Source: Loigolactobacillus coryniformis subsp. coryniformis KCTC 3167 = DSM 20001
GTDB lineage: Bacteria > Bacillota > Bacilli > Lactobacillales > Lactobacillaceae
NCBI RefSeq assembly: GCF_002706425.1
Contig: NZ_CP017713.1
Location: 496,001-560,000, forward strand
Direction: 5' to 3'
Length of the DNA stretch: 64,000 nucleotides
Shown: positions 40,744-64,000 of the stretch, one piece after another
How positions within the stretch are numbered: position 1 is the first letter of the stretch
How the letters are laid out: each line of letters begins with the position of its first letter
The notes under the pieces: generated by a model
What the model was told of the DNA's origin: nothing
Seen by the model: the letters and a program-made list of their open reading frames with translations, nothing else
Databases searched by the model: none
Translations under genes and position numbers: made by a program

Positions 40744-41726
40744 ACGCGTGGTGCTAGTTCGTCATAAAATCAAAAAAGCCTAAATTGTATACCAATATCG
40801 TCAATTCAATCTTTAATTGAAAACCAAATAGACTACGGGTGAGATTGGTTTCAATCCCAAATTGCTGGGCTAAAATTGAAAAGCGTGACTCTATTGTCCG
40901 CCGTAACGCCTTGAGTTGACGCTTATTATGCTATTTAGCACCTTTCATATTAGAACGATAAGGCGTCCATAAGTTATAGCCTAGGGCCCTAAAACTGGTC
41001 TTGAGTTTTTTCCCAACATAACCAACATCGGCCAAAATATTGGGACAAGGACAACCGCTAATTAGCTCAGGCGCTACCTTAGCATCATGAACTGAGGCTG
41101 CCGTGATCACATAATTCAGAATATAGCCATTAGCCGTGACGACCATGTGGGTTTTAAACCCATAAAATGGCATTTTCTTGGTGGCATTATAGCCAATGTT
41201 GGCCTTCCCAGCAAAAATTCTAACTCTGAAATTACGAACTTTGGCACATAGTGGGTTGGGTAAACTGTCGATAATCGCTAGGTCGCCCGAATGAGCATAA
41301 TCCTTAGTGATACCTGAGCGAATGGTATTGACTACTGCCAGTAATTGTTGCGCGCGGCGGTTGAAACGTGAACGTGATACCACCATTTGCCGCGGCATAA
41401 GCGCTGCCATCAGATAATAGAAGCGGCGTTGCGATTGAATTCCCAGTGTGACTTGTAAGCACAGTAAAGCTAAAAGTTTAATATCAGTAATTTTAGTATG
41501 TTCAACGTTGCGCCGCTCAATGACGCTACGCGGACAATAACGCTGATAAAGCAATGAACATAACTGGTAAAAGTAATGGAAACTAACTTGTAATTCGTGA
41601 CGATTTTGCTTAAACTTGAGGTGGTTCAACACAGTTATTACTCCTTTTAAGTTTTGTCACTTATGAGTCTAACTGGGTTGGACTTTTTTGTTAAATTTCT
41701 AAATGTTACAAACTAGCACCACACGT
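40744..41726 (-). mobile_element. IS982-family insertion sequence, copy A (983 bp)
   Basis: Inverted ends ACGYGTGGTGCTAGTT flank the element, with a 9-bp target duplication GGAATACAT (40735-40743 and 41727-41735). The second copy starts at 63693 in the opposite orientation. Confidence 0.9.
40754..41632 (-). pseudogene. IS982 transposase with an in-frame amber stop
   Basis: From GTG 41632 the frame reads MLNHLKFKQNRHEL to SNMKGAK, then TAG, then HNKRQLKALRRTIESRFSILAQQFGIE to the end of the element. IS982 transposases normally continue with Gln or Lys here, so a single base change has stopped the protein. The catalytic Asp region AIIDSLPNPLCAKVRNF and the KKMPFYGFKTHMVV block are present. Translation would be about 233 residues, lacking the C-terminal Glu. 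Confidence 0.8.
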
Positions 41727-42199
41727 GGAATACATTTTTAGCAGCAGTATGGACGATTATTATCGCTGATTTAGTGATGAGTTTGGATAATGTATTAGCG
41801 ATTGCAGGGGCTGCTGATGGAAGTACATTACTGGCTGTTATTGGAATCATGATCAGTATTCCAATTGTGGTTTTTGCTAGTCAGTTTATTGTGATACTAA
41901 TGAACCGTTTCCCTATATTAATCTGGATTGGGGCACTGTTGGTCGCCTATACTGCTGGATCGATGATCATTGAGGATAGATTAGCAGCCCAATGGTTGAA
42001 TAATCATATTGCCGGAATCAGTCATACGCATCTGATTCCCATATTGGCCTGTGGCTTGTTGATTGTGGTTAGCTTAGTAAATAAAGCTACAAAGCAACAA
42101 CATGCAAAAAACTAATCAAGTAGCTGATTTTAGATGCTTACAATACAGTTGGATAGCTTCCCTGATATAAATACAGCGGTGTGAATAATTGAATATAAT

Positions 42200-48331: not shown

Positions 48332-49888
48332 CGTGAAAGTTCAAAACCCAGCTAAACCCTGATTGCACTAAGTTATTTTAGCCCAAAATTAAACACAAGC
48401 AGCTCCTTGAAGTATACTTGAGTCGTCTAAACCACGATACAAAGGAGTGCTTGTGCTATGGCTAGTATACCGCAAAATAAAATTGAAAAATCAAGTTTTA
48501 AAATAATTACCCAATTTTGTGCCTTGGCGCACCTACCAGCTTTGGTCCGCTTGCTCAATGATCACCGCCATTCTAACGTTTCACTAACTGCAATCTTGAT
48601 TTGGTTACTCAAGGTTATTTTCCAGCGGCGGACACTTTACCGAGCAGAAGCACCAGGCATGTGTACCAAACGCACGGTCTACAATATCTTGAATGACGGT
48701 CGGATCAATTGGCAACGGCTTAGTTGTTTATTGGCACAACGGGTGATTACTGGCCTAGCACAGTGGCTCGACGCCCGCAAAAGTGGTGCGCTGATCATTG
48801 ATGACACCCTGATCTCACGACTGAATGCGAAACAAACCGAGCTTTTAGCCAACACCTTCGATCATGATCGGCAACGCTACTTAAAAGGTTACCGTGGTTT
48901 GACCTTGGCTTGGAGTAACGGCCAGCTCGTGTTGCCAGTCACGACGGCAGTTTTGTCGTCACAGAAAGCACGTAATCGGGTGGGCACACCAGCTAAAACT
49001 TTAGATCAACGCACCTTAGCCGGACAACGGCGGGCCCAAGCGATGCGGCCAATGCCAGCGGTCGCACTAGAACTGATCAAGCAAGCGCGGGCAAATGGGC
49101 TCAAAGCTAAATATGTGCTATTCGATAGTTGGTTTACCTCGCCTAAAATGTTTGCGGCGTTAAACGACCAAAAGTTGATCGGTATTGGCATGCTTAAACG
49201 GACCAAGAAGATCTATTACCGCTATCGTGGCCGCCAATACACCGTCAAAACGCTCTATCAGTACTTACGTCAGTCGCATCGTCAACCACGAGCCGACTAT
49301 TTATATAGTTGCGTGGTTCAGGCCGCTACCGCAAAGTTACCGTTACGCTTAGTTTTTGTCGCTAAACGCCATTGCGCCAACGACTACCTGGTGTTAGCGA
49401 CCACAAAAACCAATCTGACCCCGGCAGCGATCATTCAACTTTATAGTCGCCGTTGGCAGATTGAGAACTATTTTAAGGCCGCCAAACAATATTTACGCCT
49501 TGATCAGACTCAGATCCAGGATTATGACGGGCTTTGTGCGCATATGGCTGTGACCATGATGACCTATGATCTGTTGGCTTGGCAACAGCGGCGCCAACCA
49601 GGCGACCCAACGATTGGCGATATTTTCTATCAATTGGATACCTTACTGCCGATCATTGATCTGGCGACTGCAATCGGCCAGTTACTAGGTGAGTTGACTA
49701 ACCTAAAGGTGACTAAATCACCTGCAAAAATGACTGCGCAGATCAAGACACTGATTGACCAATTTTTAAATGGCTTATCGATTCAAACTTCGGCGCTGAT
49801 CACGCTGAGCATGAGCAATAGTTGAAGGTTAATTTTTAGGCTGTAAAGCTTGGTGGACTAAGGGATTACTCGAATTGGAACTTTCACG
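48332..49888 (+). mobile_element. IS4-family insertion sequence in the Gfo/Idh gene
   Basis: Ends CGTGAAAGTTC and GAACTTTCACG are exact inverted repeats, with further imperfect matching inward. The flanks share only an imperfect AGTAAACAA-n-TAAA, so no clean target duplication is called. Confidence 0.7.
48458..49825 (+). CDS. IS4-family transposase
   Basis: This 455-residue transposase has ALIIDDTLISRLNAKQTELLANTFDH (first Asp), YVLFDSWFTSPKMFAAL (second Asp) and YSRRWQIENYFKAAKQYLRLDQTQ (YREK signature with the Glu). The ribosome site is GGAG. Intact. Confidence 0.9.
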   Translation: MASIPQNKIEKSSFKIITQFCALAHLPALVRLLNDHRHSNVSLTAILIWLLKVIFQRRTLYRAEAPGMCTKRTVYNILNDGRINWQRLSCLLAQRVITGLAQWLDARKSGALIIDDTLISRLNAKQTELLANTFDHDRQRYLKGYRGLTLAWSNGQLVLPVTTAVLSSQKARNRVGTPAKTLDQRTLAGQRRAQAMRPMPAVALELIKQARANGLKAKYVLFDSWFTSPKMFAALNDQKLIGIGMLKRTKKIYYRYRGRQYTVKTLYQYLRQSHRQPRADYLYSCVVQAATAKLPLRLVFVAKRHCANDYLVLATTKTNLTPAAIIQLYSRRWQIENYFKAAKQYLRLDQTQIQDYDGLCAHMAVTMMTYDLLAWQQRRQPGDPTIGDIFYQLDTLLPIIDLATAIGQLLGELTNLKVTKSPAKMTAQIKTLIDQFLNGLSIQTSALITLSMSNS

Positions 49889-50029
49889 ACTTAGTAAACA
49901 AGTAAATCAAGTCTTGTATGATTTACGAAGTTCTGCCGAAATAGAATTTGCTGCAGATATAGACTGCTAATCAAGTATGCAAAACTTATGCTTTTATTTT
50001 GTGCTTACCGTAATATGACTTTTATAATT

Positions 50030-50083
50030 AAACCAGAAACGACATAAGCTCTAAATTCAGAGCTTATGTCGTTTCTGGTTTTA
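50030..50083. terminator. Strong bidirectional hairpin
   Basis: AAACCAGAAACGACATAAGC pairs perfectly with its complement, with a TAAATTC loop and A/T tracts on both sides. It ends the dehydrogenase remnant region and isolates the PRD regulator. The rest of 49971-50196 holds no gene. Confidence 0.88.
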
Positions 50084-50732
50084 GGACAAAAATTACTTTC
50101 CTAGCTTGGGCGGAAGAAAATCATGTTTGTATGGATATGAAATTTACCATAGGATAAACATGTAAGGTAAGTTGTCGAATGGAGGAAGGAAATAACATGA
50201 AGGATAAATATGCTAAACTTCTTCTTCAATTACAAAAGAGTAGAGGTGGTATTGGTGGGCAAGCATTGGCAAAAGACTTGAACGTTAGTACAAGAACAAT
50301 ACGAAATTACATTAAAGATTTAAATGAAAACTATTTAACTGAAGGTACGATCACCTCAGACAGCACTAAAGGTTATATTCTAAATGGATCAATTACTAAT
50401 TTAACAGAAACAGATCAGTTAATTTTTGAACAGCGCGCTTTTTTTATCATTAAGTATTTAATGAGCGAATCTGATGTATCTTATGAAATATTAGCTAATA
50501 GATTACATTATTCAGTGCCGACAATTCGTAGCGATATTTATCGTATTCAAAAGATTATTGAATCAGAAAGACGAAACGTAAAACTCGAAGCAATTATTTT
50601 TCAAGGTGTATCACTACTTGGCGATGAGTTAGACTGTAGGCTGTTGTTAGATAGCTTTTTCAATCCACAATTATTGAATACTGAACAGTTTTTAATTGAT
50701 TTTAATTTTTATTTTGATGGTTGGGCAAATAT

Positions 50733-52216
50733 CAGCACTTTACAGCTTTTTAAAAAAATTTGGATATAAAAAGGCACGAATGCCTATTCTTTGCTAAAAT
50801 GAGTTCGACAAAAAACCACTCAGAAAGAAGGATTCGTGTTGAACTCATTTTATCAAAAATCATCACTTTTAACCACCCTCCACGCCTATTTTTTTGATTT
50901 AAAAGCGGCTGGCTTGTCTAAGCCAATGGGCCTTAACTATTTTTGGTTGTGTCTAGCGTTGTTAGTGATCGGTGACCGCCACTCGATCCGCCACTTATTT
51001 GAACAATTTCTGGGCCGGGTGACGAAGCATTCTTTGAACACGTTTTATCGGGCTTTGGCAGTGATCGGTGACCACTTGCCACAGTTAGAAGTGCGCAACT
51101 TGACGTATTTACTGACCTTGATTCCCACTACTTGTCAGGACTTGCCCTTATTATTGGTTCTGGATGACACGGTCCAACCCAAGTTCGGCCACAAATTTAC
51201 CGGCGTCAAATATCTATTCGATCACGCCGCACATACGGGTAAGCGGCTCGTCAATGCCCATGATTTCGTTACTTTAGGTCTGATGATCCCAACACAGCGG
51301 GACCAAGATGACCAGCCAGTTTATACGTTCTTACCGTTAGCCACGCACCTTTATCAGGCGGAACAGGCGACCAAATACCAGCAAGCGGCGCAAATGATCA
51401 AGACGACTTTGAAATCGATCGCCAGCGACCAACAAGTGTTCCTACTGTGTGACAGTTGGTATCCCAAAGCTGAGATCAACCAACTGGTCATGACGCAACC
51501 TAATCTAGCTATGATCGCCAATGTGCGTAAAGATACCGCCATGTTTGGCTTACCCAAACGCACCGGTAAGCGCGGCCGGCCGCGGAAATATGGTGACCAG
51601 ATCCATTTGGGAAATATTGCATTAAATCTTTGTTCGGCCGGAGATCAGATCGGTATAGTGCGGTGTCTGACACGCTTGATGCCCCAGCCAGTTTACATGA
51701 TCCGCGTACAACGCAAGACGACTTGTCGTCTGTTCATGGCGACGAGCGCGCCCGAAGAATTAGCGGCGATCACAACCGAAACCCTAGCCGTTGATCCGAC
51801 CCAGCTCACCTATCGGACGCCGGAGACCAGCGCCCCTGCGCCAGCGCTACGAGCGTTGGCCTACTATCAAAAACGTTGGGCGATCGAGACCTATTTTTAT
51901 GAAATGAAAACATTCTGGCACTTCGGTGATTACGCCGTGCGTTCAGTAGCCAAGATTGAAGCCGATCATCATTTATTGAATACGGCGTATACCTTGATGA
52001 TCGTATTGCCATTGACCCAACCTAGTTTAGCTTTTTTGGTAACCAAAAGTTTGCGTGAACGCAAACTCTGGTTAAGTCGGCAAATTCAAGCGGCGCTGTT
52101 TTTGGCTAGTTTAGCGCGGCAAGTGCAAAGGCGGTTAAAAACAACACCGGCCAAAGTGGTGATTCAGTGGTTGGCTTCTTGTTGGTCGGGGGTCAGTGAA
52201 AAGCTGTAAAGTGCTG
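50733..52216 (+). mobile_element. IS4-like insertion sequence in the PRD regulator (1484 bp)
   Basis: Inverted ends CAGCACTTTACAGCTTTT match on both sides, with an 8-bp target duplication GCAAATAT (50725-50732 and 52217-52224). Clean boundaries imply a simple, fairly recent insertion. Confidence 0.92.
50836..52209 (+). CDS. DDE transposase, IS4/IS701-like
   Basis: This 457-residue transposase has LLLVLDDTVQPKFGHKFTGV (first Asp), VFLLCDSWYPKAEIN (second Asp) and YYQKRWAIETYFYEMKTFWHFG, whose Y-RW-E-K spacing matches the IS4 YREK motif. An ATG/TTG start lies near 50836. Not closely related to the other IS4 transposase in the window. Confidence 0.88.
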   Translation: MLNSFYQKSSLLTTLHAYFFDLKAAGLSKPMGLNYFWLCLALLVIGDRHSIRHLFEQFLGRVTKHSLNTFYRALAVIGDHLPQLEVRNLTYLLTLIPTTCQDLPLLLVLDDTVQPKFGHKFTGVKYLFDHAAHTGKRLVNAHDFVTLGLMIPTQRDQDDQPVYTFLPLATHLYQAEQATKYQQAAQMIKTTLKSIASDQQVFLLCDSWYPKAEINQLVMTQPNLAMIANVRKDTAMFGLPKRTGKRGRPRKYGDQIHLGNIALNLCSAGDQIGIVRCLTRLMPQPVYMIRVQRKTTCRLFMATSAPEELAAITTETLAVDPTQLTYRTPETSAPAPALRALAYYQKRWAIETYFYEMKTFWHFGDYAVRSVAKIEADHHLLNTAYTLMIVLPLTQPSLAFLVTKSLRERKLWLSRQIQAALFLASLARQVQRRLKTTPAKVVIQWLASCWSGVSEKL

Positions 52217-53557
52217 GCAAATATAGGATCCATTAAAAAATTATGTTCTTATATTTATCGAGAATTAAAGCGTAACAATATCAAATGTGATGTTAAATTA
52301 TTACGTTCCGTATTAACTTATTTAGTAATTTCAGTTTATCGTAACGAGCATGATCATTTTTTGAATAATACTGTAACAAGTACTATGAATATCAATAAAT
52401 CGGTGTATGTCTTAGCAGAAGCGTTATTTCATCAAACCGTTAGTCTTATTAGTGAGAATACACTAGTTGTGACTAAAAAAATTGAAAATTTTTATTGGTT
52501 TTTGATTAGTCAGGAGTTTAGCAGTACTATCGGTCAGCAGTATTATTCAATCAATTCGGAAATTTTGGATTGGGTTAAGGAAGCATTATCTCAAACGAAT
52601 AAAATTCATCAGATTGATTTTACAAACGATCAAAAATTATTGACGGATCTGGCATTGCATATTTCGCGTGATATTTTACCATTAAAATTTAATTTCTTTA
52701 TTGAAAATTCTTATCTCCATCATATTAAGACTGATTATGTTGTTGCCTATCAATATGCAGTGACTTTTACGGAATGTTTAAAGCAAGGAGCAGAAATCAC
52801 ATTACCAGAAAATGAAATCGGTTACTTAGCGCTGCATTTTGCTGCCTATATTGAACGTCATAAGCAGCGGGATATAGATGTAGCAATTATATATGGCGCA
52901 CATGCGGTATCGGCGAAATTACTAGCTCATCGAATTGAGGAATTATTTTCTAATTTAAATGTTAAGCGAATTGTGCATATTTCAAATATAAAAAAAGTAC
53001 AAGATATTGATTTTATTATTGCAAGTGATCGAATTGTTGTTGAAACAGAGATTCCATTTGTTTTGGTCAATGATTTGTTAACTAAAAATGATGTGAAGAA
53101 AATTAACTTACAAATTAATCAGCTAGTTTTATCCAATGTGTTAAAAAATAGCGTTTTAGTTCATGGACAATTTTCTAATAAAACAGAAGTTATTAAGCAA
53201 CTTCTAGTTCAGTTAAAGCAACCAGAAATGTTGGACAATGTCATGGAGCGAGAACGGCTCTCTTCAACTGATGTTGGAACATTCACAGCTTTACCGCATC
53301 CATTGATTATGAAGACGGATTGCCCGTTCTCTATGGGAATCGCTGTTCTAGATAAGCCGATTCAATGGGGTGAACGTGAAGTGAGTTTAGTCATTTTACC
53401 ACTACCAAACTCAAACAATCATTTAGAGTATGAACGAGTATTCGGTATTTTACAGAAGATCATTGTTAATGAAGATAATTTAGCTCAGTTAAAGCGTTTA
53501 CAAGTACCAACTGATTTTATGAAATTAATTTTATAATGGAAATGAGGCGAATTATAA

Positions 53558-55474
53558 ATGGAGATTTCTGAAGTATTAAGTCAAGATAATATTCAACTTG
53601 ATTTACAGGGGGCAGGTAAGGATGATGTAATACGATCATTGGCTACATTACTCTATCAAAATGGTAGTATTAGTGATTTAGAGGGATATATTAAGGATGT
53701 TTGGAAAAGAGAAAAAGAGATTTCAACCGCTGTGGGTAATGGTATTGCGATACCTCATGCAAAGAGTAAGTATGTTAAGAAAACGGCAATTGCATTTGGT
53801 CGCTCATTAAGTGGCATTCAATATGGTGAAGAAAAATGTCAATTATTTTTCTTGATTGCTGCCGGTGAAAATGCGTCAAATGAGCATTTAAAGGCACTGT
53901 CAAAATTATCTGGTTTTTTGATGGACGATATCTTTCGTGCACATTTAATATTAGCACAAAGCAATGCTGAAGTTCTTGATTTAGTTAATGAAAAAGAAGT
54001 AGATGAAAAAACTGATTCATCTGATGTAATTGCAAAGCCAAATGATAGCCAAAACTTTATAGTTGGTGTGACAGCGTGTACAGCCGGGATAGCCCATACT
54101 TATATGTCCGCCAAAGCTCTAGAGGATGCTGGTGAAAAACTTGGTATTAAAGTTAAGATTGAAACAGAAGGATCTAGCGGTACCGAAAATGAATTGACAA
54201 GTGATGAAATTAAACAAGCAAGTGGTGTTGTAATTGCCGCTGATCGCACGATTGATATGTCACGCTTTAGTGGAAAGCGTGTGTTACAAACTTCGACTAA
54301 AGCCGGTATTAATGATGCTGAAAACTTAATTAGAACTGCAAATTCAGCACCAATTTATCAAGGTAATGATGGTGATAATGCAATAATTGAGCAGCAAACC
54401 AGTGCAAAATCTATTGGTTTTGGTATCTATAAACATCTTATGAATGGTGTTTCGTTTATGCTACCTTTTGTGGTTGCCGGTGGTATTTTGATTGCAATAT
54501 CGTTTATGTTTGGTACCGGTTCTGCAGATCCTAAAAGTGCAGATTATAATGCACTAGCTGCTTTTTTAAATATGGTTGGTAGCAAAGCCGCATTTGGATT
54601 GATGGTACCTATATTTGCTGGTTATGTTGCATATAGTATTGCTGATCGTCCTGGGTTGGCACCTGGTGCAATTAGTGGTATGGTTGCATATTTAGGTGGT
54701 TCAGGTTTCTTAGGTGGGGTAGTTGCTGGATTTTTAGCAGGCTACATCATTTTAGGCCTGAAAAAAGTATTCAGTAAATTACCACAATCTCTGCAAGGAT
54801 TGAATCCGGTACTATTATATCCAGTTTTTGGTACATTGTTTACAACATTAATTATCCAATATTCAATTAATGGTCCGGTTAGTGGGTTCAATAAGGTATT
54901 AACTGCTTGGTTAAGTCATATGGGTGGTACTAATGCTGTATTAGTCGGCTTTATTCTGGGTGGTTTATTAGTGAGTGATATGGGTGGTCCGTTAAATAAG
55001 ATAACGTATGCGTTTGGTATTCAAATGTTAACTACAGGAGTAAACGCGCCAATGGCAGCAATTATGTGTGGGGGGATGATCCCGCCAATTGCACTAGGAC
55101 TTGCAACCACAATTTTTAGAAATAAATTCACGTCTCAAGAACGTGAAACGGGTAAAGTTGCATATGTTTTAGGTGCTTGCTTTATTACTGAAGGCGTTAT
55201 CCCATTTGCCGGTGCAGATCCATTAAGAGTTATTCCAGCAAACATAGTGGGTGCAGGAGTTGGCGGTGCATTATCGATGGCCTTTGGAATCACACTTTCA
55301 GCCCCACATGGTGGTATCTTTGTCATTCCAATTGCCATCAATAAACCATTATTATATCTTGGATGTATTTTTGCTGGCGCAGCAGTTGAATGTTTGATTG
55401 TTGGTTTGACTAAGAAAAGTGTAGCAACTGATGAAGTTAAAGATACAAAATCAGATGCAGTTTCATTATTTTAG
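53558..55474 (+). CDS. PTS fructose-family EIIABC
   Basis: This 638-residue permease has EIIA (residues 1-145, phospho-His 67 in AIPHAKS), EIIB (about 165-265, phospho-Cys 174 in VGVTACTAGIAHTYM) and EIIC (about 285-620, with roughly nine membrane segments, GISFMFG and SDMGGPLNK). The domain order is that of fructose permeases of Firmicutes. Fructose-family PTSs phosphorylate C1 of ketoses, but family members also take mannose-type and other sugars, so the substrate is open. It is followed 24 bp later by a class II aldolase and preceded by the broken PRD regulator. Confidence 0.93.
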   Translation: MEISEVLSQDNIQLDLQGAGKDDVIRSLATLLYQNGSISDLEGYIKDVWKREKEISTAVGNGIAIPHAKSKYVKKTAIAFGRSLSGIQYGEEKCQLFFLIAAGENASNEHLKALSKLSGFLMDDIFRAHLILAQSNAEVLDLVNEKEVDEKTDSSDVIAKPNDSQNFIVGVTACTAGIAHTYMSAKALEDAGEKLGIKVKIETEGSSGTENELTSDEIKQASGVVIAADRTIDMSRFSGKRVLQTSTKAGINDAENLIRTANSAPIYQGNDGDNAIIEQQTSAKSIGFGIYKHLMNGVSFMLPFVVAGGILIAISFMFGTGSADPKSADYNALAAFLNMVGSKAAFGLMVPIFAGYVAYSIADRPGLAPGAISGMVAYLGGSGFLGGVVAGFLAGYIILGLKKVFSKLPQSLQGLNPVLLYPVFGTLFTTLIIQYSINGPVSGFNKVLTAWLSHMGGTNAVLVGFILGGLLVSDMGGPLNKITYAFGIQMLTTGVNAPMAAIMCGGMIPPIALGLATTIFRNKFTSQERETGKVAYVLGACFITEGVIPFAGADPLRVIPANIVGAGVGGALSMAFGITLSAPHGGIFVIPIAINKPLLYLGCIFAGAAVECLIVGLTKKSVATDEVKDTKSDAVSLF

Positions 55475-55497
55475 ATAATCGAAAGGAAGTACTAGTT

Positions 55498-56460
55498 ATG
55501 GTATTAGTTTCAGCAAAGGTATTGGTTGATAAAGCTTATCAGAATCATTTTGCAGTAGGTGCTTTTAATGTTGGCAATAGTGAATTTGTTAAAAATATTC
55601 TCGCTGTTGCTGAAGATTTAAAATCACCAGTTATTATGCAGATTCACCCATATGAGTATGATTTGATGGGGAGTGATATTGTTAAATATGTACGCGAGGC
55701 CGCTATGACTGCCAATGTCCCAGTGGCGATCCATTTAGATCATGGTCGTGATATCAATGATGTTATGCGAGCTTTGCGCGATCAAATGAATTCCGTTATG
55801 ATTGATACTTCAGGCTTGCCATTTGCCGAAAATTTAGCAACGACTAAGCAGGTCGTTGATTTGGCACATCGAATTGGTGTCGCTGTTGAGGCTGAACTTG
55901 GTAGTATTGGTAATCGTAATGCAACAGCTGATAATAATATGGGTCGTGTTTATACTGATCCAAAAAGTGCAAAAGAATTTGTTGATCAAACGGGAGTTGA
56001 TGATTTAGCAGTTGCCATTGGTACCGTTCATGGACCATATCCGAGTGGTGATAATGACATTAAAATTGACCGGCTTGATGCGCTAAATGAGGTATTACAC
56101 ATGCCTTTAGTACTACATGGTGGTTCTAATAATCCTAATAATAAAATTAAGGAAGCAATCGCGCACGGGATAGCCAAGGTTAATATTTCAACTGATATTA
56201 AGATGCCATATTATCATGCAATTAAAGATACTGTTTTAGCAAAACCAGATCAGTATGAGCCTTGGATCATGACACCAGCAGCCGATGAGGTGCAGAAACA
56301 AGTTTTACGTGATAAGATGTTGCTTTTTGGCAGTGATGATAAGGCTAAATTGTATTTTAACGATCCAGAAACATTGAAGCCATTATATCCGTATGATAGC
56401 GATATTGTGGATGAAATTATTTATGATCAACAGACTGATGAAACATTAGTTGCTCGGTAA
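55498..56460 (+). CDS. Class II ketose-bisphosphate aldolase
   Basis: This 320-residue zinc aldolase of the FbaA/GatY/KbaY family cleaves a ketose phosphate to dihydroxyacetone phosphate and an aldehyde. The catalytic Asp81 and the zinc His82 are in IHLDHGRD; AVEAELGSIGN, VAIGTVHGPYP, PLVLHGGSNNP and KVNISTDIK are further family blocks. It is cotranscribed with the PTS EIIABC and followed by a terminator. A PTS plus an aldolase with no separate kinase suggests that the imported phosphosugar itself is the aldolase substrate. Confidence 0.9.
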   Translation: MVLVSAKVLVDKAYQNHFAVGAFNVGNSEFVKNILAVAEDLKSPVIMQIHPYEYDLMGSDIVKYVREAAMTANVPVAIHLDHGRDINDVMRALRDQMNSVMIDTSGLPFAENLATTKQVVDLAHRIGVAVEAELGSIGNRNATADNNMGRVYTDPKSAKEFVDQTGVDDLAVAIGTVHGPYPSGDNDIKIDRLDALNEVLHMPLVLHGGSNNPNNKIKEAIAHGIAKVNISTDIKMPYYHAIKDTVLAKPDQYEPWIMTPAADEVQKQVLRDKMLLFGSDDKAKLYFNDPETLKPLYPYDSDIVDEIIYDQQTDETLVAR

Positions 56461-56517
56461 TATATCAGTGAAAGCTTAAGAAAAAAGTATGAAATTAAAA
56501 GGATGAATGTATAAGAG

Positions 56518-56551
56518 CAAGCGTAAGCAAATTTTTTACTTACGCTTTTTT
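56518..56551 (+). terminator. Terminator after the PTS-aldolase operon
   Basis: AAGCGTAAG pairs with CTTACGCTT, followed by a T tract. The space 56552-56722 carries the promoter region of the ROK gene; no clear box is called. Confidence 0.82.
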
Positions 56552-56722
56552 GTGTTTTCTTGTTAAAAAAAGTGTATTAATAATGATATGATGGAATATA
56601 CTAAAGCTAAGTAAAGAGAGAAGGCAAACCTTATTTATAAGATAAAGGGTGTGTCTTATCGTGTAATGTGAATATGAGAAAAGCTTTATCATACATCTCA
56701 TATATTTATGAGGAGCAGCGAT

Positions 56723-57964
56723 ATGATTACTAATTCAAAAAAACGAGTTAAGCGCGAAAATCAATTGCGTATAATCAAATTATTACAATGTAAAAAAAAG
56801 ATGTCCCGTAAGCAAATTGCAAGTATGTTACAGCTGACACCAGCAAGTATAACTCAACTGACTAGTGATATGATCGAAGCTGGTATTTTACAGGAAGTTG
56901 GAACAATTGAGGGGCGAAAAACAACTTCTGGTCCCAGAGAGATTCTATTGAATATTAATGAGAATTATAAATATTTATTAGGAATTGATATTGAGATAGA
57001 TAATGTCTCTTTAGGGCTTGTTACTTTGGCCGGACGATCAATCATCAAACGATCATTTAAATTTAACTTAAAGTCATTAAGTCAAGATTCACTACCTACC
57101 TTAGTAAAAAAAGTAAAATCAAGAATATTACAAGTTCTTAATAAAAAGCAACTAGAATTTCGGGATGTTTTATATTGTGGTATTGGTATGGTAGGCAGAG
57201 AATATTATTATCAAAGTCGAGGATTAGCAATACCACCAATGTTACATTTGAAAAATGAGCTGATCAAATTATTAAGTAAAGAAATAGCAATACCTATGTA
57301 CTTAGAAAATAATGTTCGTGCGTTGGCAATAGCAGAGTCTAATTTTCATCAGCATGAAGCGACTTCATTTTTGTTCATTAAAGTAGGCCCAGGTATTGGT
57401 AGTGCTATTGTGTTAGATAATCAGCTATATTATGGTGAGCGCGGGCGTGCGGGCGAAATTGGTAGTTCGATTGTAACTTCATTTTATCCAAATAGTAATC
57501 AAAAAGAGGATATTTTTTTAGAGGACATTATTTCATTAGATTTTATTAAAGTAGAATTGAGTCAGAAATGGACAAAACAACAGTATCCATTATTGTATGC
57601 TAAGACAGCTGGAAAGTTAGATGAAATGACGATAAATGATGTTTATTATGCTTTAGCAAATAAAGAAGCAAATTTAATTGCATTGTATCAAACAAAAATG
57701 CATATTTTAGCAAGCAGAATTATTGATTATACTGATTTACTGGATTTGAAAATGGTTTATTTATTTTTTTCTGGTACTAAATCTAAGTTTTTATTCAATT
57801 TGCTCAATAAAGAACTAGAAACTTCTTTTAAACGGACTAATCGGGAAATCAGGCTAAGTAATATTGATAATAATCAAGCTTTTATTGGCGGAGCAGGAGT
57901 GGCATATATAAAATCTATAGAAATGCTAGCTAATTTGGATATTGATCTTATTGATTTAAGCTAG
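56723..57964 (+). CDS. ROK-family transcriptional repressor
   Basis: This 413-residue ROK regulator of the NagC/XylR type has a winged helix-turn-helix with KMSRKQIASMLQLTPASITQLTSDMIEAGIL (about residues 25-55). The sugar-binding ROK domain contains IKVGPGIGSAIVLDNQLYYGERGRAGEIGS. The metal-binding Cys cluster usual in ROK proteins (CxCGxxGC) is missing; the corresponding region reads SFYPNSNQK. The ATG at 56723 follows ATGAGGAG. It precedes the sulfoglycolysis-like operon and is its likely repressor. Confidence 0.88.
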   Translation: MITNSKKRVKRENQLRIIKLLQCKKKMSRKQIASMLQLTPASITQLTSDMIEAGILQEVGTIEGRKTTSGPREILLNINENYKYLLGIDIEIDNVSLGLVTLAGRSIIKRSFKFNLKSLSQDSLPTLVKKVKSRILQVLNKKQLEFRDVLYCGIGMVGREYYYQSRGLAIPPMLHLKNELIKLLSKEIAIPMYLENNVRALAIAESNFHQHEATSFLFIKVGPGIGSAIVLDNQLYYGERGRAGEIGSSIVTSFYPNSNQKEDIFLEDIISLDFIKVELSQKWTKQQYPLLYAKTAGKLDEMTINDVYYALANKEANLIALYQTKMHILASRIIDYTDLLDLKMVYLFFSGTKSKFLFNLLNKELETSFKRTNREIRLSNIDNNQAFIGGAGVAYIKSIEMLANLDIDLIDLS

Positions 57965-58010
57965 TTGAAATAATTGTGTTTTTTTTAACAAAAAGGGTTT
58001 ACTTTTTCGT

Positions 58011-58056
58011 ATAAAGCGATTACAGTATAGTTGTAATAATTAATTAACTTAATTAA
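58011..58056 (+). promoter_or_regulatory. Candidate promoter, cre site and operator of the transaldolase operon
   Basis: ATAAAGCGATTACA (58011-58024) matches the CcpA cre consensus at 12 of 14 positions. TATAGT (58026-58031) is a possible -10. A perfect 17-bp palindrome TTAATTAACTTAATTAA (58040-58056) lies between it and the ribosome site, where a repressor such as the ROK protein could bind. Confidence 0.5.
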
Positions 58057-58075
58057 CTAATAGGAGGGTTTTACA

Positions 58076-58741
58076 ATGAAGTTTTTCTTAGACAGCGCCA
58101 AAATTGATGAGATTCGTGAAGCACGGGATACATTTGGTATTGATGGTATTACGACAAATCCGAAGCATGTGATGGCATCTGGTAAACCATTTTTAACTGT
58201 AATTCATGAATTGGCTGAAGAATTTAAAGATAACCCTGACTTTCCAATTTCCGTTGAAATTAATCCGCATTTAACTAAGGCAACCGAAATTATTCCTGCT
58301 GCTAAAAAAATATCAGCTATTTCCCAAAACTTTGCAATTAAGATTCCATGCACAGTAGAAGGACTAGCTGCAGCTAGAGAATTAGAAAAAGCTGGTGTTA
58401 GGACGAATGTCACATTGGTTTTCTCGCCATCTCAAGCAATTGTTCCTGCAAAAATTGGTGCTAAGTTCGTTTCACCATTTGTCGGCTGGAAAGAGGATAG
58501 TGGTGATGACGGTCTTTCTTACGTACGTGATATTGTTCAAATTTATAAGAATTACGATTATAAAACAGAAATTATTGTGGCTGCCGTACGTAATGGGTAT
58601 CAAATTGCTGAAGCTGCAAAGGCTGGTGCCGACATTGTAACGGCTGGATTATCGGTTTACAAAACTGCATTTGAACATCCGTTTACTAAGCAAGGATTAG
58701 GCGTTTTCCAGAATGCTTGGGATAATACAAAAACAGAATAG
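58076..58741 (+). CDS. Transaldolase-family enzyme, probable sulfofructose transaldolase
   Basis: This 221-residue small transaldolase is of the FSA/TalC type. MKFFLDSAKIDEI and DGITTNPKHVM are the start motifs, the Schiff-base Lys is K89 in FAIKIPCTVEGL, and VFSPSQAIVPAKIGAKFVSPFVGW follows. Usual members have TTNPSL or TTNPSI; here it is TTNPKH, with a Lys in the substrate region. With the genes downstream it fits SftT-type enzymes, which cleave 6-deoxy-6-sulfofructose to 3-sulfolactaldehyde and pass the C3 unit to glyceraldehyde-3-phosphate. First gene of the operon. The substrate is inferred from context. Confidence 0.85.
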   Translation: MKFFLDSAKIDEIREARDTFGIDGITTNPKHVMASGKPFLTVIHELAEEFKDNPDFPISVEINPHLTKATEIIPAAKKISAISQNFAIKIPCTVEGLAAARELEKAGVRTNVTLVFSPSQAIVPAKIGAKFVSPFVGWKEDSGDDGLSYVRDIVQIYKNYDYKTEIIVAAVRNGYQIAEAAKAGADIVTAGLSVYKTAFEHPFTKQGLGVFQNAWDNTKTE

Positions 58742-58750
58742 GGGATACTT

Positions 58751-59407
58751 ATGTTTACAGCATTAAAAAAAGTAAATACGGATTTCCCGTTATTTAACGT
58801 TAAGGATGATGAGTTTAAAAAATATGGCCAAATTATAGACGATATTGACTCAGATAGTTTGCTAAAAGTATTAGCTGACAAAACAATTCCGGACGTTGGT
58901 AATACCTATGTTGCATCTGATGTAAGCTTGGAAAGTTTACCAATTACAACTACTATTAAAACGAATATTTTTGGTGGCCTACCGATTGAAGTAGGTTATT
59001 GTAACGGACACAGCCATCAACTAAATTGTCTTGAGTGGCATAATTCGCCAGAAGTAAATATTGCAACTGAAGATATTGTACTTTTCTTAGGACAGACTCC
59101 TAAATTACAGAATGATCATTATGATGTATCGGATATTGAAGCATTCTTTATTCCAGCTGGAACCATGATTGCTATTTATGGAACAACAATGCATTTTGCA
59201 CCGTGTCGAACTTCTGACAGAGGATTTAAATGTTTAGTTGTATTACTCAAGGATATTAATGCTGATTTACCAGAAAACTTAGCTAAGCCTAAAACACTAT
59301 TTAAGTATGGTAAATGGTTAATTACTCATCCAGATAATGAAAAGTTTACTTCACAAGGTGCATTTCCTGGAATAATCGGTCAAAATTATGAACTGAAATT
59401 AATGTGA
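58751..59407 (+). CDS. DUF4867 family protein, probable sulfoquinovose isomerase (SftI-like)
   Basis: This 218-residue cupin-like protein contains the pattern GLPIEVGYCNGHSHQLNCLEWHNSPEVNIA, IVLFLGQTP and FFIPAGTMIAIYGTTMHFAPC, whose His and Glu residues look like a metal site. I place it in DUF4867; as I recall, members of that family were shown to isomerise sulfoquinovose to sulfofructose in the Firmicutes transaldolase pathway. It follows the transaldolase by 9 bp and precedes the fucose-isomerase-like gene by 15 bp. Its function here rests on that recalled link and on context. Confidence 0.75.
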   Translation: MFTALKKVNTDFPLFNVKDDEFKKYGQIIDDIDSDSLLKVLADKTIPDVGNTYVASDVSLESLPITTTIKTNIFGGLPIEVGYCNGHSHQLNCLEWHNSPEVNIATEDIVLFLGQTPKLQNDHYDVSDIEAFFIPAGTMIAIYGTTMHFAPCRTSDRGFKCLVVLLKDINADLPENLAKPKTLFKYGKWLITHPDNEKFTSQGAFPGIIGQNYELKLM

Positions 59408-59422
59408 GAGGTGGTAATTAAA

Positions 59423-60757
59423 GTGGCAATTCGCGTATTATATTTACCGGCTGCAAGGTTGACTTTCGATGGTGAACTGGCAAAAAAAGTATTTCAAGAA
59501 AGTCAAAAAGTCCTTGCCAGTATTAAGAATGTAGCCCTGACATCACCAGACGGACTTCTAAGTGATCCGGACGATCTGACTAAATTTATTCAGTCTCATG
59601 GGACTACTTATGATCTGGTAGTCTTTCAAGATATTACCTTTGTTGATGGTGAATTCATTAATAATACGATTGATTTAGTTGATGCACCGGTTATTATTTG
59701 GGGAGTTCGTGAACCAAGCGTTGGTGGTCGATTGCGATTGAATACATTAACTGGGGTTATGAGTACTGCTAATACTTTGCAGACTAATAATCGGCGCTAC
59801 CTATATTTGATTGGTAATCCGAGTGATGCAGAAACTGTGCAGAAGCTAGAAAAACAAATTGATGTTTTAAATCTAGTACATCGTTTAAAGAGTATGAATA
59901 TTGGTGTAGTTGGAAAGTATCCAAACGGTTTCTTTTTCTCAGATACCAATAATCAAGTTTTGCATGATACTTTTGGAATCTCAATTAAAAATTATGAATT
60001 AAATGATTGGTTTGATGAATCACGTAAGATTAAAGCAGCAGATTATCAGAATGAATTACAATTTGCAGAAAAAAATATTGTTGGTTTAAATAAAACTGAC
60101 GATACTGTTAAACATTTTGCACAATTCACTACAGTTGCTAAGAAACATATTAATGATGATCAGCTAAATACGATTGCTATGCGTTGCTGGCCAGATTTCT
60201 TTGAACAGTTACATGCCGCTCCTTGTGGCGTATTCTCACAATTGACGGATCAAGGTTTTCCGACAGCTTGTGAAGCAGATATTCATGGTTCGCTATCAAT
60301 GTATATTTTGCAAGAATTAACTCATGGTACCGCACCTTATTTGGGTGATGTAGTCAATTTTATTCCGGAAGATAATTCAATTATTATGTGGCATTGTGGT
60401 TTTTCCCCATACTCCTTGGCTAATCAAAAAACTGGAGCTCAAGCAGGTGTTCATCCGAATCGTAAAATTGGTTTAGCGATGGATTTCGGCTTAAAGCCAG
60501 GGAAAGTTACTTTATTTAGAGTAAGCTATACACCAAAAGGATATCGTTTCATTATCACTTCTGGTGAGGTGTTGGATAAAGATAATCTATATAATGGGAC
60601 TTCGGCGCAAATTAAATTAGATCCAGATGTTAATCAATTTCTTGATCAGTCAATTAAAGAAGGCTATGAACCGCATTTTGCTTTAGTATATGGTGATGTG
60701 ACTGAACAATTAGCGGCAATGGGGCATATATTGAATCTAAATACAATTCAAATTTAG
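59423..60757 (+). CDS. L-fucose/L-arabinose isomerase-like protein, function uncertain
   Basis: This 444-residue protein has the fold pattern of the fucose/arabinose isomerase family: IRCWPDFFEQL-type segment (here MRCWPDFF), TACEADIHGSLSMYIL (metal acid residues), IIMWHCGFSPYSLA (His) and VTLFRVSYTPKGYRF. Such enzymes interconvert aldoses and ketoses with Mn. A second isomerase beside the DUF4867 protein is unexpected: it may handle another sulfosugar or be the real isomerase. The start is GTG at 59423 after GAGAGGTGG; the earlier GTG at 59411 lies in that site. Confidence 0.7.
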   Translation: MAIRVLYLPAARLTFDGELAKKVFQESQKVLASIKNVALTSPDGLLSDPDDLTKFIQSHGTTYDLVVFQDITFVDGEFINNTIDLVDAPVIIWGVREPSVGGRLRLNTLTGVMSTANTLQTNNRRYLYLIGNPSDAETVQKLEKQIDVLNLVHRLKSMNIGVVGKYPNGFFFSDTNNQVLHDTFGISIKNYELNDWFDESRKIKAADYQNELQFAEKNIVGLNKTDDTVKHFAQFTTVAKKHINDDQLNTIAMRCWPDFFEQLHAAPCGVFSQLTDQGFPTACEADIHGSLSMYILQELTHGTAPYLGDVVNFIPEDNSIIMWHCGFSPYSLANQKTGAQAGVHPNRKIGLAMDFGLKPGKVTLFRVSYTPKGYRFIITSGEVLDKDNLYNGTSAQIKLDPDVNQFLDQSIKEGYEPHFALVYGDVTEQLAAMGHILNLNTIQI

Positions 60758-60771
60758 GGGTGCATATTATT

Positions 60772-61644
60772 ATGAAAATTGGCTTTATTGGATTAGGTAT
60801 TATGGGTGGCGCTATGTCAGCCAATTTAATTAAAAAGAGTAATCGAGATGTTTTTGTGTTTGATTTTGATGAGAGCAAGGTCGCAAAATCAGCCGCGATT
60901 GGGGCGCATGCCTGTGCTAGTAGCGCAGAAGTAGTGGAGAATGCTGATGTGATTTTCACTAGTGTTCCAAAAGCAGAACATGTTCGCGCAGTACATGAAA
61001 GTGTATACGATGTAATCAGATCGGGACAGATTTTTATTGATATGAGTACAATTGCACCTAAAGATTCGGTAACATTAGGCAAAAAAATTAATGAGTACGG
61101 TGCACAATTTCTTGATGTACCAATTGTTAAGTCAAAGCAACAAGCAATCGATGGTACGCTGGGTATTTATGTTGGTGGACCTAAAGAAGCGTATGAAAAA
61201 GTGAAGTCGTTACTTGAACTTTTAGGCAGTGATATCGTCTATATGGGTGAAAATGGTAAGGGTATTACTATGAAAATTTTACACAATATGTTAGTCGGTG
61301 AAATTCAAAATGGGGTCAATGAAATGATGTTGCTGGCTGAGAAAAATGGAATTGACTGGCAGACTTTTTTGAAAGCGATTTCTATCGGTGGCGCAAATAA
61401 CTTCTATATTCAGACTAAAGCCGAAGTAATCGGCAAACGGAAATTTGATACTGCTTTTTCAGTAGCTAACATGCGTAAAGATGTTGGTATTGCCGAGGAT
61501 ATGGTAAATGATCAAGGAATTGATTTACCTGGTGTGAAATTAGTGAATGGTATTTATCAGCAGGCGATAGATCGTGATTTAGGAAACCTAGATTTCTCTG
61601 CATCATTTAAGGTTGTGGAAAGTAACGCAAAAGCTGCAGAGTAG
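60772..61644 (+). CDS. Beta-hydroxyacid dehydrogenase, probable 3-sulfolactaldehyde reductase
   Basis: This 290-residue NAD(P)-dependent enzyme is of the 3-hydroxyisobutyrate dehydrogenase family. The dinucleotide motif is IGFIGLGIMGGAMSANL, and the catalytic Lys (K168) is in GKGITMKILHNM. The substrate loop reads DVPIVKSKQQAIDGT, like the DVPVGRTSANA loop of E. coli YihU, with Lys120 where YihU has the sulfonate-binding Arg123. In sulfoglycolysis YihU-type enzymes reduce sulfolactaldehyde to dihydroxypropanesulfonate, regenerating NAD+ in fermenting cells. The ATG at 60772 follows TTAGGGGTGC. Confidence 0.8.
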   Translation: MKIGFIGLGIMGGAMSANLIKKSNRDVFVFDFDESKVAKSAAIGAHACASSAEVVENADVIFTSVPKAEHVRAVHESVYDVIRSGQIFIDMSTIAPKDSVTLGKKINEYGAQFLDVPIVKSKQQAIDGTLGIYVGGPKEAYEKVKSLLELLGSDIVYMGENGKGITMKILHNMLVGEIQNGVNEMMLLAEKNGIDWQTFLKAISIGGANNFYIQTKAEVIGKRKFDTAFSVANMRKDVGIAEDMVNDQGIDLPGVKLVNGIYQQAIDRDLGNLDFSASFKVVESNAKAAE

Positions 61645-61657
61645 AGGGGATGAAAAA

Positions 61658-63685
61658 ATGGAGATTAGCAAGCAGGCTAATGTAGTTATCTTTAAAGATG
61701 GACGATTAACTTATAATAATCGTGTTATTTTGAGCGGAAATAATGACTCACCGATTCTATTTTTAGGTTCTGGTAAAGAGAATCTTAAAATGTATCGTGG
61801 CCATTTTAAGATTAAAGACTATATAGAATCTAGGATTCCACTGGTTATTGATAAAGTTGAGAATCAGAAGGATACAATTATTATTGCTTTCAAAAGCCAG
61901 GATACTACGTATATTAAACTTGCCGTTAGTTTAGATGATGAGGGACGATTAATAATTAAACCAATTTTAATGGATGGAAAATGGAATCGACTTTGGTTAA
62001 GATTGTATGCCAATCAAGATGAAAGAATTTATGGTTGTGGTGAACAAATGTCCTATTTTAATTTACGGGGCAAACATTTTCCTTTATGGACTTCGGAACC
62101 TGGTGTTGGGCGCAACAAGGAAACTCTTACAACTTTCTGGGCAGACGTAAAAGATAAGGCTGGAGGAAATTACTACACAACTAATTATCCTGAACCAACT
62201 TTTATTTCAACTCAAAAGTATTACTGCCATACAACTTCATACCAATATGCTGATTTTGATTTTAGGAATACTAATTTTCATGAATTACAATATTGGGGTA
62301 TCCCAGATCAAGTGATTTTTGAAACAGCAGATAATTATATTGATTTAGTTGCTAAACTAACTAATTTGTTAGGCCGGCAACCTGTATTACCTGAATGGAC
62401 GGATAATGGGGCTTTATTAGGTGTTCAAGGTGGTTCAAAACGAGTTGAAGAAATTACCCAAAGAATGCTTAAAAAAGGTGTTAAATTAGCGGGAATATGG
62501 TGCCAAGACTGGGAAGGTATTAGAATGACAAGTTTTGGTAAACGTCTATTTTGGAATTGGGAATCAAATGAAGAACTGTATCCAAACTTAAAAGAGAAAA
62601 TAAAAGCTTGGAAAGGTAAAAATTTAAAGTTTCTTGCATATATCAATCCATATGTTGCTAATGATACAGAAATGTATAAAAAAGCGGATACGATGGGATT
62701 CTTTGCTAAAAATAAGGCTGGAAATACTTATTTAGTTGATTTTGGTGAGTTCTATTGTGGCGTCGTTGATTTTACAAATCCCCAAGCATTCTCATGGTTC
62801 AAAAGTATCATCAAGAAGAACCTTATTGATATTGGAGTTGTTGGTTGGATGGCTGATTTTGGCGAATATCTACCAACCGATATCGTGTTGAATGATGGAT
62901 CTAATCCAATGGTTGCTCATAATGAATGGCCAATGCTGTGGGCTAAATGTAATTATGAAGCAGTTAAAGAGTCTGGAAAATTAGGCGAAGTTGTTTATTT
63001 TATGCGTGCGGGTGCAACGGGAAGTCAAAAGTATTGCACGTTACTCTGGGCAGGGGATCAGAGTGTTAATTGGAGCCTAGATGATGGACTTGCTTCGACA
63101 ATTCCTGCAGCTTTATCAGCAGGAATGACTGGGAATGGATTAAGTCATAGTGATATAGGTGGATATACTAGTTTGTATGGAAATATTCGCTCCAAAGAGT
63201 TATTCATGCGCTGGGCAGAAATGGGGAGTTTTTTACCTTTTATGCGTACACATGAAGGAAATCGCCCGTCCGAAAATTTTCAAGTGTACGATGATGATGA
63301 AGCTATAGATCATTTTGCAAAATGCACTAATGTATTTGTTGATTTAACGGAATATCGTCATAAAATTATTGAAGAAAATGCAACTAAGGGAACTCCAGTT
63401 CAAAGACCGTTATTTATGCAGTATGAAAAAGATGATGAAGCTTATGAGGTTCAGTATGAGTACTTATTTGGACCAGATGTTTTGGTTGCACCGGTATATG
63501 AAGAAGGTAGGACAGATTGGTCTGTCTATCTACCAAATGATGAATGGATTCATCTTTGGAGTGGTAAAGAATATTCTGGTGGAGAAGTGAATATTGATTC
63601 ACCATTAGGAAGAATTCCAGTATTTTATCGTAAAAAGTCTCGATTTAGCGATTTATTTAAAAGCATAACTAAAAAATATCAATAA
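61658..63685 (+). CDS. GH31 sulfoquinovosidase
   Basis: This 675-residue GH31 glycosidase releases sulfoquinovose from its glycosides, the plant sulfolipid headgroup. Against E. coli YihQ every key residue appears at a constant offset of -5: Q283 in WCQDW, R296 and W299 in GKRLFWNW (sulfonate pocket, YihQ R301 and W304), nucleophile D400 in GWMADFGEYLP, acid/base D467 in AGDQSVNW, and Y503 in SDIGGYTSL. No signal peptide, so the substrate is hydrolysed in the cytoplasm. The ATG at 61658 follows AGAGGGGATG. Last intact gene before the IS. Confidence 0.92.
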   Translation: MEISKQANVVIFKDGRLTYNNRVILSGNNDSPILFLGSGKENLKMYRGHFKIKDYIESRIPLVIDKVENQKDTIIIAFKSQDTTYIKLAVSLDDEGRLIIKPILMDGKWNRLWLRLYANQDERIYGCGEQMSYFNLRGKHFPLWTSEPGVGRNKETLTTFWADVKDKAGGNYYTTNYPEPTFISTQKYYCHTTSYQYADFDFRNTNFHELQYWGIPDQVIFETADNYIDLVAKLTNLLGRQPVLPEWTDNGALLGVQGGSKRVEEITQRMLKKGVKLAGIWCQDWEGIRMTSFGKRLFWNWESNEELYPNLKEKIKAWKGKNLKFLAYINPYVANDTEMYKKADTMGFFAKNKAGNTYLVDFGEFYCGVVDFTNPQAFSWFKSIIKKNLIDIGVVGWMADFGEYLPTDIVLNDGSNPMVAHNEWPMLWAKCNYEAVKESGKLGEVVYFMRAGATGSQKYCTLLWAGDQSVNWSLDDGLASTIPAALSAGMTGNGLSHSDIGGYTSLYGNIRSKELFMRWAEMGSFLPFMRTHEGNRPSENFQVYDDDEAIDHFAKCTNVFVDLTEYRHKIIEENATKGTPVQRPLFMQYEKDDEAYEVQYEYLFGPDVLVAPVYEEGRTDWSVYLPNDEWIHLWSGKEYSGGEVNIDSPLGRIPVFYRKKSRFSDLFKSITKKYQ

Positions 63686-63692
63686 TTATGTT

Positions 63693-64000
63693 ACGTGTGG
63701 TGCTAGTTTGTAACATTTAGAAATTTAACAAAAAAGTCCAACCCAGTTAGACTCATAAGTGACAAAACTTAAAAGGAGTAATAACTGTGTTGAACCACCT
63801 CAAGTTTAAGCAAAATCGTCACGAATTACAAGTTAGTTTCCATTACTTTTACCAGTTATGTTCATTGCTTTATCAGCGTTATTGTCCGCGTAGCGTCATT
63901 GAGCGGCGCAACGTTGAACATACTAAAATTACTGATATTAAACTTTTAGCTTTACTGTGCTTACAAGTCACACTGGGAATTCAATCGCAACGCCGCTTCT
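63693..64000 (+). mobile_element. IS982-family insertion sequence, copy B (runs off the window)
   Basis: It starts ACGTGTGGTGCTAGTTTG, like copy A, and the visible 308 bp match copy A read in reverse complement. It is inverted relative to copy A and lies 7 bp after the sulfoquinovosidase stop. Confidence 0.9.
63787..64000 (+). CDS. IS982 transposase (copy B, 5' part)
   Basis: It begins GTG for MLNHLKFKQNRHELQV after AAAAGGAG and stays open to the window edge. The part carrying the amber codon in copy A lies outside, so it cannot be said whether this copy is intact. Confidence 0.88.
   Translation, partial: MLNHLKFKQNRHELQVSFHYFYQLCSLLYQRYCPRSVIERRNVEHTKITDIKLLALLCLQVTLGIQSQRRF

Follow-up and report, generated by a model that had tools for sequence, protein, structure and literature searches.

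A putative reductive sulfo-TAL sulfoglycolysis operon in a genome of Loigolactobacillus

The sulfo-TAL (sulfo-SFT) pathway of sulfoglycolysis, in which sulfoquinovose (SQ), the sugar of plant sulfolipid, is degraded with the help of a sulfofructose (SF) transaldolase, has been known since 2020, and one of the organisms that use it, Enterococcus gilvus, is a lactic acid bacterium. Descriptions of it exist for Bacillus, clostridia and E. gilvus (PMC9594981, PMC12890257, PMC8397734, PMC12330013, PMC11489063), and acetate and formate are made from SQ by E. gilvus (PMC11489063). Here, we analyzed a window of 64 000 nucleotides (positions 496001-560000 of the 2.95-Mb single-contig genome; window numbering is used below) from Loigolactobacillus coryniformis subsp. 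coryniformis KCTC 3167 = DSM 20001, a member of Lactobacillaceae. The gene content, protein families, pocket residues and gene order of one locus in this window suggested, with a probability of about 0.87, a reductive and fermentative sulfo-TAL operon, whose reactions, product dihydroxypropanesulfonate (DHPS), transport and regulation are predicted from sequence.

No report of this pathway in Lactobacillaceae was found in the literature searched, by titles and abstract openings. Words beginning 'Lactobacill' occurred 0 times in the sulfoglycolysis literature examined; names such as Ligilactobacillus fall outside this test, and one of them occurs in PMC12330013, in which a variant of Ligilactobacillus became enriched in the presence of SQ while its absolute abundance fell, and the authors considered it an unlikely SQ degrader. 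Five other papers (PMC8674285, PMC11790720, PMC12967013, PMC11695228, PMC7692227) contain passages on enzymes for SQ, on predicted pathways or on consortia that include lactobacilli, none of which shows SQ use by a lactobacillus. The initial annotation had stated that no such pathway was described for this group; this goes too far, as E. gilvus is a studied sulfo-TAL fermenter (PMC11489063). The pathway itself is already known from gut and soil bacteria, and what is new, as far as the literature search reaches, is the family.

Gene order and the sulfoquinovosidase, transaldolase and isomerase

The cluster comprises six genes, all on the forward strand, with intergenic gaps of 111, 9, 3, 2 and 13 bp. 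A ROK-family transcriptional regulator of the NagC/Mlc type (56708..57964; Pfam ROK 64.3 bits, HTH_24; 90.5 bits against NCBIfam NagC, under the cut-off of 650), possibly the local regulator of the cluster, is followed by genes predicted to encode 6-deoxy-6-sulfofructose transaldolase (SftT/SqvA, 58076..58741), an SftX/SqvB-like DUF4867 protein (58751..59407), an SftI/SqvD-like SQ isomerase (59411..60757, GTG start), an SftR/YihU-like candidate 3-sulfolactaldehyde reductase of the beta-hydroxyacid dehydrogenase type (60760..61644, GTG start) and an SftG/YihQ-type sulfoquinovosidase of glycoside hydrolase family 31 (GH31; 61658..63685, ATG start). The listed reading frame of the last gene opens at an in-frame TTG (61613) upstream of this ATG. 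The five closely spaced, same-direction genes that had been placed behind a ROK regulator were thus found at these positions, and their Pfam families, matched far beyond chance, agreed with the names given (TAL_FSA, 158.7 bits; PF16161, 236.1 bits with a cut-off of 28.7; Fucose_iso_C, 29.6 bits with a cut-off of 29.3; NAD_binding_2 and NAD_binding_11, 140.7 and 83.8 bits; Glyco_hydro_31_2nd, 164.5 bits). Genes for sulfoquinovosidase, SQ isomerase, SF transaldolase and reductase stand together at the locus, the isomerase and the reductase scoring under formal cut-offs.

The GH31 protein (SftG) scored 981.7 bits, above the cut-off of 553, against NCBIfam PRK10426, which is named alpha-glucosidase and which we take to be the YihQ-type model. 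Its six best sequences in PDB reached 744.9-951.6 bits and four of them are named YihQ, the top two (8r56 and 6pnr) being named only glycosyl hydrolase family 31 and alpha-glucosidase, respectively; the next GH31 enzyme in the ranking was YicI with 155.2 bits. Alignment with Escherichia coli K-12 YihQ gave 358 identical residues in 672 aligned positions. The conservation of six YihQ residues at one constant offset, as initially noted, was confirmed for all six: Q288, R301, W304, D405, D472 and Y508 correspond to Q283, R296, W299, D400, D467 and Y503 (offset 5 throughout). We take these six, whose letters were confirmed on K-12 YihQ, to be pocket and catalytic residues. A GH31 tree of 44 rows (43 different, as one GH31 protein of the same genome was entered twice) placed the window protein on the YihQ side and not outside the sulfoquinovosidase clade: 40 rows, including the window protein and YihQ, were separated from YicI and two further GH31 proteins of the genome, with a support of 91 and very long outgroup branches. 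Window SftG was sister (99) to 10 of the 14 lactobacillar SftG rows, four Levilactobacillus-type rows being further off.

For SftT, the best PDB match was the SF transaldolase of Bacillus megaterium (BmSF-TAL, 8bc3; 322.6 bits), together with 8bc4 and 8bc2 (319.8 and 316.2 bits), which are named Transaldolase and were counted as SF-TAL entries, whereas the next other transaldolase reached 159.9 bits. The protein stayed under the cut-off of TIGR00875, the equivalog of fructose-6-phosphate aldolase (FSA; 202.8 vs 245.95 bits), and bears Lys89, presumably the Schiff-base lysine, and the segment GWKEDSGDD (GWKENSGDD in BmSF-TAL). In a tree of 46 rows, it fell among the SF-TAL rows with three FSA-type rows apart (99), its position inside the group not being resolved; thus, it does not group with FSA-type enzymes of ordinary sugars. 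A search of eight genomes of the genus identified a sulfo-type SftT only in its own genome, the next matches having 41% and 23-26% identity. The 41% match (G191:C19:24908-25537, another Loigolactobacillus genome) lies between sulfo-type and ordinary FSA-type matches.

The isomerase had a single NCBIfam match at E <= 0.001, the SftI model NF048012 (576.5 bits, residues 3-441 of 443). It stood next to isomerases of lactobacilli (96) in a tree of 85 rows that carried a warning about long branches meeting, and its identity was up to 49% to Bacillaceae vs 35-43% to Lactobacillaceae proteins. Taken together, profile, PDB-sequence and tree evidence bears out the initial sulfo-TAL assignment, with GH31 at YihQ, the transaldolase at SF-TAL and the isomerase nearest to SftI.

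Transport genes and genomic setting

According to the initial annotation, neither importer nor exporter was visible; however, candidates for both were identified directly downstream, just outside the window, in the next 15 kb (L005; window coordinates beyond 64000 are extrapolated). Following sftG, an IS982 insertion sequence (IS) element begins on the forward strand at 63694, reaches the window end at 64000 and runs to about 64674 (transposase gene L005:288-1166). It is followed by a TauE/SafE gene (64703-65446, L005:1204-1947; PF01925, 92.9 bits), an IS30 transposase gene (65564-66616, L005:2065-3117) and a gene of a GPH symporter (66760-68160, L005:3261-4661; TIGR00792, 462 bits vs a cut-off of 231.35), so that an IS element precedes each transporter gene. 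The symporter was 44.7% identical to YihP, 42.7% to YihO and 26.7% to YicJ, and grouped with 15 lactobacillar symporters of SQ loci (98) and then with YihO/YihP (97). It is a candidate SQ importer and TauE a candidate sulfonate exporter, as judged from their families; a TauE gene also follows the SftI gene in a goat-rumen clostridial contig (L156).

The IS982 element has inverted repeats at its ends and, as the best fit, a direct repeat of 11 bp, which includes the sftG stop codon; without it, tauE would start 25 bp past sftG (counted by hand). Because of this repeat and this distance, tauE was very likely once part of the operon. The same insertions raise the possibility of a decaying remnant, in which IS982 and IS30 cut transport off and growth on SQ is lost. 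Many IS genes around the locus, including one that splits a regulator gene, would fit such decay, as would the finding that, among the 15 related lactobacillar loci with an sftG, this gene is in pieces in four (L040, L048, L051 and L055, the first and last with further broken genes). However, the profiles are covered almost completely by the regulator and by each of the seven reading frames for pathway and transport, purine-rich stretches that may serve ribosome binding are kept upstream of tauE and the symporter gene (by eye), and IS elements can bring promoters of their own. We consider a remnant unlikely.

The SQ cluster lies in an IS-rich stretch of about 54 kb between veg and the L-lactate permease gene (22530 to L005:13029). 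Three sister genomes were compared at this site (backbone genes veg, L-lactate permease, ispE and glmU being recognized by eye): in G147 and G123 the distance from veg to the permease gene was about 295 bp, and G170 had other genes at that place. The G+C content was 31-38% for the pathway genes and 28.5% for TauE, compared with 45% for the stretch from permease to glmU, and SftI-like matches were found in three of eight genomes of the genus. The island was likely gained by this lineage rather than lost in others. An origin from a plasmid was not supported, as positions 48400-64000 matched 12 plasmid records, each covered to at most 10% and mostly by transposase genes; the window matched plasmids of L. 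backii and L. coryniformis over short stretches, mostly of transposase genes, and the 20 plasmid records matched by SftI all stayed below 60% identity. We likewise did not retain a fully mosaic origin, since SftG, GPH and SftI (the last on a long branch) stand next to lactobacillar relatives; SftT gave no resolved signal, and SftX and the reductase differ from this pattern.

Some other features were observed in the neighborhood. Upstream of the ROK gene, a fructose-type phosphotransferase system (PTS) and a class II aldolase (53558-56460) probably form a separate sugar system because the ROK gene stands between. Further upstream of these lies an apparently split BglG/Mga-type regulator gene (helix-turn-helix part 50179-50769, PRD/EIIA part 52196-53536) with a transposase gene (50836-52209) in between. 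The island also holds, by eye, what seem to be two sets of citrate lyase/oxaloacetate decarboxylase genes and many IS genes, and a TerC-like membrane protein gene (about 40476-42115, by eye) is seemingly interrupted by an IS982-type transposase gene (40931-41632). The sole match in the window to a CcpA catabolite-responsive element (cre) was at 22695 (1.04 expected by chance), and 23 promoter-like and 3 terminator-like sites were found vs 31.8 and 3.0 in shuffled sequences.

Predicted pathway, reductase and DUF4867 protein

In the predicted pathway, SQ or sulfoquinovosyl glycerol would enter by the GPH symporter, SftG would free SQ, SftX may speed anomer conversion or ring opening, and SftI would convert SQ to SF. 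SftT would then transfer the three-carbon dihydroxyacetone unit of SF onto glyceraldehyde-3-phosphate, giving fructose-6-phosphate, which would enter glycolysis via phosphofructokinase (PFK; one match in the genome), and sulfolactaldehyde. The latter would be reduced to DHPS by the YihU-like enzyme with NADH from glycolysis, and TauE would export DHPS. Because this reduction would consume NADH, pyruvate could be converted to formate and acetyl-CoA/acetate by a pyruvate formate-lyase (PFL)-like glycyl-radical enzyme, which is known here by Pfam match (two PF02901 proteins in the genome). Dehydration of DHPS by an HpfG-type enzyme was not supported: one of these two proteins, of 808 aa, was scored and reached 541 bits against a cut-off of 1000. 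In the stretch L169:6724-11929, the gene of this 808-aa protein has as neighbors, by eye, a DeoR-like regulator gene, an activase-like gene and the gene of an FSA-type transaldolase.

Several results weigh against this reading. SftI missed the cut-off of NF048012 (576.5 vs 700) and matched no solved structure in the PDB sequence search. The reductase scored 150.1 against the model of sulfolactaldehyde reductase (YihU, PRK15461; cut-off 348), its best NCBIfam model was 2-hydroxy-3-oxopropionate reductase (TIGR01505, 200.8 vs 340.75), and no YihU chain was among its 14 PDB matches at 1e-30. In a DUF4867 tree of 50 rows, SftX grouped (100/99) with four Lactobacillaceae DUF4867 proteins and not with SftX of SQ loci. 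In addition, two IS elements keep sftG, tauE and the symporter gene apart, and among the best 80 of 435 relatives in the named collection, a single one had a match to TauE. As for the isomerase, when seven others from SQ-type loci were scored against NF048012, those of Metabacillus (819.5) and Paenactinomyces (807.7) passed, whereas the five clostridial (401.7, 408.3) and lactobacillar (366.1-420.5) ones did not; thus, this cut-off seems to be tuned to the Bacillus clade.

The reductase shares 46% identity with its counterparts in the clostridial sulfo-TAL loci L155 and L156, at most 36% with three paralogues in its own genome and 29% with E. coli YihU. A P-[IV]-V-K-S-[KR] segment is common to the window, L155 and L156 enzymes and absent in YihU and the three paralogues; residues 123-126 are VKSK, where YihU has GRTS and one paralogue (L074) SGGE. 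The window reductase was matched in 3 of the best 80 of the 435 relatives. From its operon context and its kinship with the two clostridial enzymes only, we regard it as a candidate YihU-like sulfolactaldehyde reductase.

SftX had a single PDB match, 9gyy (185.8 bits), which is the structure of B. megaterium SqvB (PMC11968277); roles proposed for SqvB/SftX are mutarotase or ring opening (PMC11968277, PMC9594981). The refuting condition set initially, a grouping with enzymes of ordinary sugars, is touched for the DUF4867 protein: two of its four tree partners stand alone in two Loigolactobacillus genomes, and the other two adjoin FGGY kinase-like and transketolase-like genes (by eye), with a 25-27% identical SftI-like isomerase near. 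We read SftX as a probable local recruitment of a generic sugar factor. DUF4867 genes to which no obvious ketose genes adjoin were also observed at L208:9112-9768 and L209:18152-18799, both from genomes having an EMP2-like locus, and at L212:7448-8080, from a Levilactobacillus genome whose own sulfo-TAL cluster is without DUF4867. These SftX partners and the best reductase model, itself below its cut-off, would suit an operon for a sugar or sulfosugar other than SQ (an isomer of SQ or an ordinary alpha-glucoside) with a reductase of the tartronate-semialdehyde type. The GH31 pocket and tree, the wide margin by which SF-TAL is the best match of SftT, the sole NCBIfam match of SftI, the YihO/YihP-like symporter and TauE all argue for SQ, and the other substrate is scarcely credible.

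Distribution in Lactobacillaceae and comparison with described systems

An even draw of 397 Lactobacillaceae genomes was searched with SftI at E <= 1e-20. Of these, 33 gave matches: besides the genome studied here, 20 matched at E <= 5.7e-78 and 12 only weakly, with 24-26% identity. Stretches of 14-18 kb were read around the 20 strong matches (L036-L055), of which 17 (L036-L051 and L055) have SftT, a GPH symporter and an aldehyde dehydrogenase (ALDH; by Pfam for L037 and by similarity for the others); within the stretches read, SftG was present in 15 and SftX in 13 of these. For example, sftG is in one piece in Paucilactobacillus suebicus DSM 5007 and in pieces in Levilactobacillus brevis CD0817. 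The window reductase had no match in the 20 loci at 1e-5. In a rival reading, sulfolactaldehyde is oxidized to sulfolactate here too, as expected for these relatives, and the YihU-like protein has another job: the ALDH is present in 17 of 17 other lactobacillar sulfo-TAL loci and the reductase in none. However, the ALDH of L037 had no match at 1e-3 in the window or the next 15 kb, to which this search was confined, and the reductase gene is part of the operon and has counterparts in two clostridial clusters, so oxidation in this organism is highly improbable and reduction to DHPS remains the preferred reading.

In the other three loci, an SftI-like isomerase and a class II aldolase occur close to an SsuA-like gene. 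L053:5367-12961 (L. jiayinensis 257-1), L052:6051-13778 and L054:7996-11863 contain SsuABC-like importer genes, an SftI-like isomerase (35-38%) and a class II aldolase, and in L052 and L053 these are joined by an ALDH and a kinase of the PFK family (PF00365 in the case of L053). Such a gene set resembles a sulfo-EMP2-type route for SQ; it occurs in two sister genomes of Loigolactobacillus and partly in a third genome. We consider it reasonably likely that Lactobacillaceae include an unrecognized guild of SQ degraders with three arrangements, namely, the reductive sulfo-TAL island of this Loigolactobacillus (DHPS), the sulfo-TAL cluster with ALDH that several genera carry (sulfolactate expected), and an SsuABC-like importer with SftI-like isomerase, PFK-family kinase, class II aldolase and ALDH (sulfo-EMP2-like; L. 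jiayinensis and a sister species). Because of the broken sftG in four loci and the rarity of TauE, our confidence in this guild and in the operon was slightly lowered. In wider samples (SftI at 1e-60, own genome counted), 3 of 395 genomes of the order and 13 of 398 of the class matched; none of the 29 genomes of a family guessed to be Enterococcaceae did, this identity being a guess and E. gilvus not being reached.

If the operon is active, lactobacilli would join clostridia and enterococci as fermenters of SQ. They are common inhabitants of silage and plant fermentations, which are rich in sulfolipid. The DHPS they release could in turn serve sulfonate-respiring bacteria that form H2S, as has been described in the gut. 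DHPS and sulfolactate would be two expected products within one family of culturable strains.

Compared with published descriptions of fermenting Firmicutes (Eubacterium/Agathobacter rectale, Clostridium symbiosum and E. gilvus), this locus likewise has predicted sulfoquinovosidase, SQ isomerase, SF transaldolase and a reductase to DHPS (PMC11968277, PMC11489063, PMC9594981, PMC8397734); the DUF4867 protein of the E. rectale system and the sugar transporter of E. gilvus also have counterparts here. The locus differs from them in its family, Lactobacillaceae, and E. gilvus extends the route to 3-hydroxypropanesulfonate (3-HPS) and 3-sulfopropionate (3-SP) via HpfG, HpfD and HpfXYZ (PMC11489063). 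The sulfo-TAL systems of B. megaterium and B. aryabhattai share the SftT, SftX, SftI and SftG families (PDB matches 8bc3 and 9gyy), but these bacteria oxidize sulfolactaldehyde to sulfolactate (PMC9594981), instead of which a reductase is found here. The clostridial contig from goat rumen (JAFSYM010000116, L156) likewise has SftG, SftT, reductase, SftI, TauE and GPH close together, whereas it has no DUF4867 match in the locus, another gene order and a GPH only 28% identical. Finally, the ALDH-type clusters of Paucilactobacillus, Secundilactobacillus, Levilactobacillus, Liquorilactobacillus and Ligilactobacillus, which are expected to make sulfolactate, resemble the window in GPH (55-60% identity), SftT (59-67%) and SftG (42-64%, where in one piece), and the SftG and GPH trees place the window beside most of them; unlike the window, they have an aldehyde dehydrogenase, no matching reductase and an SftI that is about 38-42% identical.

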